Shown here in pieces: positions 22,376 through 38,572 of a DNA stretch of 64,000 nucleotides. This stretch comes from Arthrobacter sp. H16F315. Lineage in GTDB: Bacteria; Actinomycetota; Actinomycetes; Actinomycetales; Micrococcaceae. The stretch covers positions 1,612,001-1,676,000 of the forward strand of contig NZ_JAMXSS010000002.1 of the NCBI RefSeq assembly GCF_024124825.1, in the 5' to 3' direction. Every line of letters starts with the position of its first letter. The first letter of the stretch is position 1. The translations under genes and the position numbers were made by a program. The notes under the pieces were generated by a model. That model was not told where the DNA came from and searched no databases. It worked only from the letters and a program-made list of their open reading frames with translations.

Positions 22376-23359
22376 TTACCGCCCTTGCAGCGGCGCGTAC
22401 ATCACGTCGACGTCCCAGCGGGTGAAGCCCAGGCGCCGGTACAACGAGACGGCAGGAACGTTGTCCGCGTCGACGTAGAGCATCACTGCGTGCAGGCCCT
22501 GACGCTGCAGATATCCGATGCCGGCGACTGTCAGAGCCTTGCCCAGCCCGGTGCCCTGCGCTTCGGGTGCCACGCCCACCACGTAGACCTCGCCGATAGC
22601 GGGGTGGTCGCCGTGCCGGGGGTGCACCTTGGTCCAGTGGAAGCCGAGGATCCGGTCCGAGGAATCGACGGCCAGCAGGAAACCGGTCGGATCGAACCAC
22701 TGTTCGGCCATCCTCGCGTCGAGATCTGCCCGCGTCATGTTTCCCTGCTCCGGATGGTGCGCGAAAGCGGCCCGGTTCGCGGCGAGCCAGCGGTCCTCAT
22801 CCCGCGCCGGGACGAAGGCACGAAGGGTGACACCGTCCGGCAGGGGAATCTCGGGCAGCTCCGCGGCCGTGCTGGTGAGGCGCATCTTCCACAGTTCCCG
22901 GACCGGTCCGTAACCGTAGCGTGCGGCGAGGTCGGCAGCGGCTTCGTGGTTGCCGTGGGACCAGGCCTTCAGGCCAGCAAAGCCGCGGGTGCTCCGGAGC
23001 TCGCCGACCAGCCGGTCCGCCACGCCTTGGTTGCGGTAGCTGGGGTGGACGGCGATTTCCAGGACACCGATGCCGTCCGGTTCCTCGATGACGACGGCGA
23101 CCCCGGCGAGATCCCGTGCCGTCGCCGGGTCGGACCCCTCATCGGGGCTGTACAGGGCGAGTGTCAGGGCCGTTGTGGTGCCGACGCTCCCACCGGTATC
23201 CGCGGCGCGCAGCGTCACGAGGGTCTGTTCGGACAGCGGGGGATTGCCGTCGGATTCCTCCGCGGCGGCCGCGAGGGCCGTGACGTCCTTCAGCAGCTGC
23301 GGATCCGCAGCTCCTTTGGCGGCGAGGACGGGCCAGTTTTCAGGATGCGCAGGACTCAT
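22376..23359 (-). CDS. mshD: Mycothiol synthase
   Basis: The 327-residue protein has two GNAT domains in tandem; it acetylates Cys-GlcN-Ins, the last step of mycothiol synthesis, the main low-molecular-weight thiol of actinobacteria. The N-terminal domain contains [17 protein letters not shown] and the active C-terminal domain [19 protein letters not shown] followed by [20 protein letters not shown], the MshD signature. Neighbouring glnR is also found next to mshD in other actinobacteria. TAGCCT lies 6 bases before the ATG. Confidence 0.95.
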
Positions 23360-23365
23360 GGTGCA

Positions 23366-23371
23366 AGGCTA
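23366..23371 (-). promoter_or_regulatory. -10 box positioned for leaderless transcript (mshD)
   Basis: TAGCCT on the minus strand, 6 bases, then the ATG at 23359. Confidence 0.55.
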
Positions 23372-23397
23372 TACGGTGGCGCCGGGCAGGGCGGATT

Positions 23398-23426
23398 TTG
23401 TCGATTCGGGAACTTCTACGTATAGT
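23398..23426 (+). promoter_or_regulatory. Strong intergenic promoter upstream of candidate small RNA
   Basis: TTGTCG and TATAGT are separated by 17 bases and point away from mshD into a region without an obvious protein gene. Predicted start near 23433. Confidence 0.6.
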
Positions 23427-23432
23427 CGTTAA

Positions 23433-23582
23433 GTCATCCGGTGCCTGGTCGGGAAGTATTCCCGGTTCGGTCAGCGCAGATGCGAGGGGGATCCACCACT
23501 GGGGTGGCCTCGATACGTTCGACCCGTATGTCCTCCACTGGTTAGCAGAAAGCCCCGGACTGATGTCCGGGGCTTTCTGCGT
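23433..23582 (+). ncRNA. Candidate structured small RNA between mshD and glnR
   Basis: A region of about 150 bases begins just after a good promoter and ends at a perfect 14-bp terminator hairpin. Inside are three more hairpins: CGGGAA-GTA-TTCCCG (23450-23464), a stem CGAGG/CCTCG enclosing CCACC/GGTGG (23483-23512), and ATACG/CGTAT with a 7-base loop (23513-23529). A 21-codon ORF (23480-23545) is present but has no ribosome site. I do not recognise an Rfam family. It is divergent from mshD and converges on glnR, so a trans-acting RNA or an antisense influence on glnR mRNA are both possible. Confidence 0.5.
23547..23578. terminator. Intrinsic terminator hairpin, probably shared with glnR
   Basis: AGAAAGCCCCGGAC pairs perfectly with its reverse complement across a TGAT loop. 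It ends the candidate small RNA on the plus strand and lies 59 bases beyond the glnR stop on the minus strand, so it may act in both directions. Confidence 0.8.
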
Positions 23583-23636: not shown

Positions 23637-24335
23637 TCAGGCCCCGGTGAGTTCTTCCTCCGGGTGCCGGACCAGGGTCAGGCGGTAGCCGACGTTGCGG
23701 ACCGTGCTGATCAGGTTCTCGTGGTCGGCACCGAGCTTCGCCCGCAGCCGCCGGACGTGGACGTCCACGGTGCGGGTGCCGCCGTAGTAGTCGTAGCCCC
23801 AGACCTCGGTCAGCAGTTGCTGGCGGGTGAAGACCCGGCCGGGGTGCTGGGCCAGGTATTTGAGCAGTTCAAATTCCTTGAATGTCAGGTTCAGCGGAGC
23901 GCCGTTGACGCGGGCCGTGTAGCTGGCCTCATCGATCACGACGCCGGCGGCCCGGATTTCGGCGGGGGCATCGTCCTGGTCCGGGACGGCCCGGGCGATG
24001 CCAAGGCGGATGCGGGCTTCGACTTCTGCGGGCCCGGCCGACTCGAGAACGATGTCATCGACGGCCCAGGCAGAGGAGACGGCGGCCATGCCGCCCTCGG
24101 TCAGTATCAACATCAGCGGGGCGCTCAGGCCGGTGGCCTTGAGCAGTTGGGTCAGGGAGCGCGCGCCGACGAGGTCTTTGCGGGCGTCGAGCAGGACGAT
24201 GTCGCAAGGGTCCGTCTCCAGGAGGGCTGTCGGCTCGGCGGGGAGAATGTGGACCCGGTGGTTCAGTAATTCCAGCGCAGGCAGGACGTCCACCGATGAG
24301 CCGGTGCTGTTCGTCAGTAGCAGGATGTGCGACAT
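23637..24335 (-). CDS. glnR: GlnR-type orphan response regulator
   Basis: The 232-residue protein has an atypical receiver domain ([20 protein letters not shown], then [21 protein letters not shown]) and a C-terminal OmpR/PhoB winged helix with [18 protein letters not shown] and [15 protein letters not shown]. The receiver sequence closely follows actinobacterial GlnR, the regulator of nitrogen assimilation (glnA, amtB and others) that works without a partner kinase; no histidine kinase is adjacent here. GGAGGAAAC precedes the ATG. A TATACT box lies about 50 bases upstream. Adjacency to mshD matches other actinobacteria. Confidence 0.9.
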
Positions 24336-38499: not shown

Positions 38500-38572
38500 A
38501 GGGTAGTGGCGCAATTGGTAGCGCAGCGGTCTCCAAAACCGCAGGTTGCAGGTTCGAGTCCTGTCTGCCCTG
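38500..38572 (+). tRNA. tRNA-Trp (anticodon CCA)
   Basis: A complete 73-base cloverleaf: acceptor AGGGTAG/CTGCCCT (one U-G pair), D arm, anticodon stem GCGGT/ACCGC with loop CTCCAAA (CCA at 38533-38535), T arm GCAGG/CCTGT with TTCGAGT, and discriminator G as expected for Trp. The 3' CCA is not encoded. tRNA-Trp directly before secE-nusG is a common actinobacterial arrangement. Confidence 0.97.

Follow-up and report, generated by a model that had tools for sequence, protein, structure and literature searches.

What kind of gene occupies the space between mshD and a regulator gene in the window, the whole 64-kb stretch of DNA analysed here? The first-pass annotation placed a structured small RNA of about 150 bases at this site, between a promoter and a terminator, and suggested a part for it in the nitrogen or redox network. 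The structured RNA is real: BLAST searches, first of 39 genomes and then of 197 sampled from Micrococcaceae, showed a conserved core of ∼57 nt in 61 of the latter, spread over 11 of 32 genera, and its hairpin and T-arm covary. The 150 bases fold strongly as a whole (23432 to 23581, −73.3 kcal/mol, z of −3.8), but the conserved unit is only a tRNA-like core at 23486 to 23538, which is almost certainly a conserved tRNA-like RNA that has no anticodon.

The elements around the core were largely as first described. The sigma-70-type promoter-like site predicted at 23398 to 23426 (+ strand), TTGTCG-17 nt-TATAGT, was the only one on the plus strand between 20000 and 27000 in a consensus scan, and both strands together held two such sites compared to 0.5 expected in shuffles. 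Among 137 distinct Micrococcaceae-type loci, a set that includes three with doubtful species labels (L113, L158, and L182), 49 had TATAGT upstream of the core at a distance of at most 150 bases, compared to 1.9 in letter shuffles, and 83 had a −10 sequence of the TANNNT type there, compared to 51 in shuffles. The predicted 5′ leader of the precursor runs from 23433, a start inferred from the −10 sequence, to 23485 (+). Comparison of the loci showed that leader and terminator differ among relatives, the leader in both sequence and length, and that the conserved part is the core alone; of the three internal hairpins claimed earlier, the first, in the leader, is not conserved, whereas the rest lie inside the core. 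The terminator hairpin at 23546 to 23579 (+) has the perfect stem that had been noted, although it is 15 bp long and not 14 bp (23546 to 23560 paired with 23565 to 23579 around a 4-nt loop; 16 bp with one extra pair). Because a separate T-run is absent, it was missed by the terminator scanner. It may also serve the convergent gene.

The divergent neighbor is mshD, encoding mycothiol synthase (22376 to 23359, − strand; NCBIfam TIGR03448, 353.6 bits compared to a cut-off of 163.1). The convergent neighbor (23637 to 24335, −) encodes an OmpR-type regulator that we take to be glnR from synteny, since all of its NCBIfam matches stay below cut-off and no equivalog cut-off is reached. The proposed nitrogen or redox role was not supported. 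No GlnR-box-like site matching at least seven of nine positions of the consensus was found in 23340 to 23480, and in tblastn searches neither mshD nor glnR was near the RNA in Arthrobacter cryoconiti, in 13 records from outside the family, or at the diverged and second copies, within the stretches examined. At Rfam gathering thresholds the sole match in the window was a tRNA at 38500 to 38572, and the RNA is absent from Rfam, in line with the earlier view of an undescribed RNA; of the subthreshold matches at the locus, the best is confined to the terminator and lies on the other strand. There was no Rfam tRNA match at the window core and no Rfam family for the RNA on 12 loci, and ARAGORN reported no tRNA or tmRNA either on the 20 RNA-bearing loci among 21 scanned or at the core in the window.

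The core (all +) begins with the 5′ strand of an acceptor stem, GGGGGAU (23486 to 23492), which is followed by a 5-bp D-arm-like hairpin, CCACC-ACUGG-GGUGG (23493 to 23507), a 5-nt linker (4 nt in rare cases), a T-arm of 5 bp whose loop fits UUCRANY, AUACG-UUCGACC-CGUAU (23513 to 23529), and, at 23530 to 23538, the 3′ acceptor strand GUCCUCC, the discriminator A73, and C74, as read from the comparison of loci. The hairpin is the only one between acceptor stem and T-arm and stands in place of both the D arm and the anticodon arm; an anticodon arm with a 7-nt loop is absent. From G1 to A73 the core measured 52 nt in 131 of the 137 loci, 53 nt in 4, and 51 nt in 2. C74 is present in all 137, and CCA is encoded in 55; in the window, C74 is followed by UG, so that CCA is not fully encoded.

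Covariation was examined in three alignments of chosen nonidentical copies (A1, A3, and A5, with 49, 47, and 24 sequences). The acceptor stem was paired in 49/49, 47/47, and 24/24 sequences, with G3:U70 and A73 invariant throughout. The A1 and A3 sets were picked with a pattern that fixes the acceptor letters, yet all 67 loci found by BLAST fitted that pattern, and the 24 sequences include 8 diverged homologues that were found by model and not by pattern. Since the stem varies by just one one-sided change, its pairing rests on the fit to tRNA and not on covariation. The D-arm-like hairpin, with an invariant GG at the end of its loop, has three pairs changed on both sides in each of the two larger alignments; the both-side-changed cells numbered 33 in each, compared to 12.6 and 10.1 in shuffles, and only these cells and the score exceeded the shuffles, whereas the number of both-side-changed pairs and the pair types did not. 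The T-arm covaries once the diverged homologues join, with three both-side-changed pairs and one unpaired cell in the 24-sequence alignment. In those eight homologues a T-arm of the CCAGG/CCUGG type replaces AUACG/CGUAU, the T-loops read UUCGAUU, UUCAAUU, UUCAAGC, or UUCAAGU, ACCA is encoded in seven, and the fifth hairpin pair is open in seven. The GG that ends the hairpin loop and the UUC of the T-loop, both invariant, could make a tRNA-like elbow contact.

The window core alone has an ordinary stability for its composition (z of −0.3), and the case is therefore carried by conservation and covariation. The energy of the tRNA-like fold, set beside the minimum, was −18.9 compared to −19.1 in the window, −20.3 compared to −21.5 in a Williamsia copy, and −20.6 compared to −20.7 in L261, and the two were equal in L258. 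Mean T-arm pair probabilities in single-sequence folding were 0.36 in the window, 0.04 in the Williamsia copy L101, 0.25 in L261, and 0.99 in L258; a UCGA/UCGA hairpin competes in the window core and in L101.

The RNA is found beyond the family as well. In 50 of the 61 RNA-positive Micrococcaceae genomes the loci were read, with one more later (L083), and all 50 fitted the core pattern. A pattern scan of GTDB species genomes, which requires the exact T-arm and so makes the invariance of its matches partly a product of construction, returned at least 117 stretches, from Micrococcaceae plus 13 records from 12 other genomes; the latter, among the matches listed, were Gordonia (5), Williamsia (5), one Rhodococcus metagenome-assembled genome, and one genome labeled Kitasatospora. 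This last (L126, K. arboriphila) carries a Williamsia-like cluster and is probably mislabeled or contaminated, although it is counted among the 12. L113 (labeled Vibrio cholerae), L158 (an Acidobacteria metagenome-assembled genome), and L182 (Sporosarcina) show the Micrococcaceae order mshD-RNA-glnR, and their labels are probably wrong or the result of contamination. Arthrobacter sp. Br18 (L166) has two RNA copies 746 bases apart with identical flanks, a local duplication. Covariance model R2 detected 9 RNA carriers in 298 Mycobacteriales genomes, 8 of them with diverged homologues. Under strict filters, which applied whenever a model search covered more than 40 genomes, model R1, built from Micrococcaceae only, gave no convincing extrafamily copy among 297 genomes from the order and 197 from the class; a permissive search of 22 RNA-negative genomes gave nothing above 22.6 bits. 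Weak matches outside the true copies (26 to 30 bits, or at most 22.6 bits) were not accepted as members. Five of them were inspected: four lacked the core (among L094 to L097 and L239), and L094 had both acceptor strands and no UUCRANY T-arm, in 80 nt. Viral contigs held nothing that matched the core pattern exactly, and there was no match to a Williamsia query on plasmids and none to the window core in phages.

In every Micrococcaceae locus that was read, the RNA is upstream of mshD and in the opposite orientation; the exceptions are A. cryoconiti and two stretches that end there. Outside this setting, the RNA stood beside at least one of three genes, for a truncated alanyl-tRNA synthetase (mini-AlaRS), an MprF-type lipid synthase, and an esterase, in 15 of 20 extrafamily or diverged genomes: in 12 of 12 pattern-scan genomes among the matches listed (Gordonia, Williamsia, Rhodococcus, and "Kitasatospora") and in 3 of 8 diverged, model-found genomes. 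The mini-AlaRS gene itself adjoined it in at least 7 of the 12, some of these stretches being short. For example, in Williamsia limnetica the RNA, esterase, synthase, and mini-AlaRS all fall within 7 kb; genome G872 has esterase, synthase, RNA, and mini-AlaRS, and in G716 a gap of ∼60 nt separates the end of the mini-AlaRS frame from the RNA that follows. A. cryoconiti, a member of the window's own family, has the order RNA, synthase, esterase. (The same A. cryoconiti stretch, L203, holds a SAM-IV riboswitch, RF00634, at 2147 to 2266 on the − strand with 82.5 bits; the frame downstream of it, 207 to 1511, −, resembles an O-acetylhomoserine sulfhydrylase by eye.) Against this pattern, none of the three genes came within ∼7 kb of four second RNA copies of Williamsia or of five of the diverged copies. 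The Williamsia second copies are L274, L276, L277, and L278, one of which (the same as L177) is beside genes for a luciferase-like and a GAF-ANTAR protein; the neighbors of some nonadjacent copies were mixed (ANTAR, luciferase-like, PTS, and GGDEF/EAL proteins) and offered no lead.

The truncated enzymes are recognizably alanyl-tRNA synthetases (two proteins score 349.9 and 338 bits with PF01411). Seven of them align with Escherichia coli AlaRS up to about residue 440. The proteins end at ∼460 to 500 residues, so that the editing and C-Ala domains are absent; two score 354 to 374 bits with the NCBIfam alaS models, below the cut-offs of 457 and 529. In E. coli AlaRS, N303 and D400 read G3:U70. 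The N303 equivalent is N in four of the seven and lost in three, and the D400 equivalent is D in five and E in two. The neighboring synthases match LPG_synthase_C (PF09924, 223 to 251 bits in three proteins), and in NCBIfam they match lysine-type MprF and LysX models, in each case with a score far under the cut-off; they are probably MprF-type aminoacyl-lipid synthases, with alanine as the putative amino acid. The window's genome has a single AlaRS, in an 898-codon frame, and no mini-AlaRS; it has one PF09924 protein with an esterase gene directly before it, away from the RNA.

Co-occurrence across genomes points the same way for the mini-enzyme. In a profile search of the same 298 Mycobacteriales genomes (E of 1e-100 or better), mini-AlaRS was found in 9 of 9 RNA-positive and 2 of 289 RNA-negative genomes (Fisher 1e-15, kinship ignored; the nine include the centre genome, and the eight diverged carriers may be close relatives), and in six of the nine carriers its gene and the RNA are at different places in the genome. 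In the two exceptions, G726 and G819, no RNA was detected within ∼9 kb of the mini-AlaRS gene or, with strict filters, genome-wide. In Micrococcaceae, with kinship again ignored, the esterase was present in 48 of 61 RNA-positive compared to 30 of 136 RNA-negative genomes, and PF09924 in 49 of 61 compared to 56 of 136. However, 10 of the 61 have neither, 7 of them from a single genus in which 10 genomes are RNA positive, which means that the acceptor may differ there, and 29 of the 136 RNA-negative genomes have both, which means that the synthase does not need the RNA. In two of eight stretches that have mini-AlaRS and no nearby RNA (L291 and L295), mini-AlaRS directly adjoins a PF09924 synthase, and in L296 the two are ∼5 kb apart; the two proteins may thus form a unit of their own.

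What was observed, then, is a conserved anticodon-less tRNA-like RNA with invariant G3:U70, A73, and C74 that adjoins and co-occurs with mini-AlaRS, synthase, and esterase. From these sequence comparisons, the RNA is very likely an alanine acceptor, and on balance we favor a dedicated alanine mini-tRNA gene for nonribosomal transfer of alanine, most probably to a membrane lipid. A lipid acceptor is likely in Mycobacteriales; in Micrococcaceae its chances are a little short of even, with cross-bridge synthesis as a serious rival. The gene would be a single-gene transcription unit, yielding a short precursor from the promoter at 23398 to 23426; RNase P would remove the 5′ leader, and the ∼53-nt core left by trimming would be completed to an A-CCA end. 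The core appears to keep what AlaRS needs, namely, the acceptor stem with G3:U70, A73, the T-arm, and a possible elbow, and it cannot decode because it has no anticodon arm. Charging with alanine would fall to the housekeeping AlaRS in the window's organism, whereas Gordonia, Williamsia, and relatives would use the dedicated mini-AlaRS. Most probably the alanine would then pass to a lipid through an AlaDAGS-like MprF-type synthase, encoded in a pair with the esterase, with alanyl-phosphatidylglycerol and alanyl-diacylglycerol as candidate products. A more specific form of this proposal has about even chances: the anticodon-less RNA and a mini-AlaRS devoid of editing and elbow-binding domains would be a dedicated operational-code pair, forming a separate charging line for lipid and perhaps cell wall, while Micrococcaceae kept the RNA without the mini-enzyme, as seen in the window's genome, and would charge it with the housekeeping enzyme.

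Precedents for these steps exist. An acceptor-stem microhelix can be charged by a viral AlaRS from which the editing and C-Ala domains are missing, and a G3:U70 minihelix by an Aquifex aeolicus AlaRS fragment consisting of the aminoacylation domain only, while the E. coli N461 fragment binds both tRNA-Ala and microhelix poorly (PMC10036535). AlaDAGS makes alanyl-diacylglycerol in Corynebacterium glutamicum, and a strain of it with both pesT and alaDAGS deleted is reported to lack the gene for alanyl-diacylglycerol and alanyl-phosphatidylglycerol synthesis; M. tuberculosis LysX carries its own lysyl-tRNA synthetase (PMC10580965). Counting against the proposal, loss of alaDAGS in Corynebacterium pseudotuberculosis left growth and resistance unaffected (PMC10580965).

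Other explanations were weighed against this one. The conserved block in the window coincides with a 21-codon open reading frame (23480 to 23545), but as a small protein gene this frame can be practically dismissed: of the 137 loci, 25 have an ATG at its place, 6 have the stop, and a single one keeps both; this, together with core lengths of 51 to 53 nt and compensatory variation, speaks for an RNA and bears out the earlier view that no protein is encoded. Hardly more probable is a nonfunctional tRNA-like decoy, for example, a substrate of RNase P or of the CCA enzyme that remains from a tRNA-Ala gene. An acceptor-T-arm minimum of the kind seen here does suit RNase P; however, the core is near-invariant across orders, covaries, has its own promoter and terminator, and co-occurs with mini-AlaRS. 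A regulatory RNA with a borrowed tRNA-like fold, acting, for example, as a sensor of alanine charging or as a CCUCC antisense that covers Shine-Dalgarno sequences, is improbable as well. GUCCUCC does not vary among the aligned sequences and would be able to base-pair with GGAGG, but CCUCC sits within the acceptor stem in the fold, T-loop variation is confined to UUCRANY, the bases after C74 vary with CCA encoded in many loci, and many neighbors of the RNA are alanine or lipid enzymes.

The alternative that deserves most weight, although we consider it unlikely, concerns the amino acid acceptor: in Micrococcaceae the alanyl mini-tRNA may mainly feed Fem-type ligases that build the peptidoglycan cross-bridge, lipid use being restricted to Mycobacteriales or secondary. 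Alanine occurs in the cross-bridge of many Micrococcaceae. FemAB was found in all 61 RNA-positive genomes, including the 10 without synthase and esterase, compared to 122 of 136 RNA-negative ones (Fisher 0.006, kinship ignored), but since it is nearly universal in the family (183 of 197 genomes), this association test is weak. Moreover, a FemAB protein from L224 had no relative on 130 RNA-bearing stretches, in a single-query search that other Fem subtypes may escape, and in A. cryoconiti it is the synthase and esterase that lie beside the RNA.

No description of such an RNA was found in the literature, as judged by titles and the openings of abstracts with partial coverage, preprints and most subscription papers lying outside it. 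If the proposal is true, this is a new RNA family in Actinobacteria, and the separation of lipid or wall amino acids from protein synthesis in bacteria becomes directly testable. Laboratory minihelices that are charged through the acceptor stem alone have been used to argue that an operational RNA code preceded the anticodon. Cells that encode such an RNA in a gene of its own, along with a mini-synthetase to match, would offer a living example.

Compared to known systems, the RNA shares general features with tRNA-Ala and minihelix-Ala (a 7-bp acceptor stem, G3:U70, A73, and a 5-bp T-arm with a UUCRANY loop; the host's own tRNA-Ala is not meant here) and, in many copies, a CCA end. Unlike tRNA-Ala, it has no anticodon arm, variable loop, or U8/A9 and has one hairpin for the D and anticodon arms, and unlike minihelices, which are laboratory constructs, it is a gene. 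The tRNA-like domain of tmRNA also combines an alanine-type acceptor end with the lack of an anticodon, but the RNA described here has no mRNA-like domain or tag and is ∼53 nt long compared to ∼350. Staphylococcal tRNA-Gly species used only for peptidoglycan are dedicated to nonribosomal transfer, as the RNA would be here, although they are full cloverleaves with an anticodon. The mini-AlaRS of Tupanvirus resembles the enzymes seen here in having no editing and C-Ala domains and, as proposed for them, in charging an acceptor-stem RNA; it is viral, charges ordinary tRNA-Ala, and has no partner mini-tRNA mentioned in the available text (PMC10036535). M. tuberculosis LysX is similar in that a lipid synthase has its own synthetase to supply the aminoacyl-tRNA, but there the synthetase is a fused LysRS, the amino acid is lysine, and the available text mentions no dedicated RNA (PMC10580965). 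A further parallel is the PesT-AlaDAGS pair of C. glutamicum, an esterase with an MprF-type synthase, likened by domain and pairing and not by sequence; neither a mini-tRNA nor a mini-AlaRS is mentioned for it in the available text (PMC10580965). The proposed system would work like tRNA-dependent lipid aminoacylation, yet with an anticodon-less RNA of its own.
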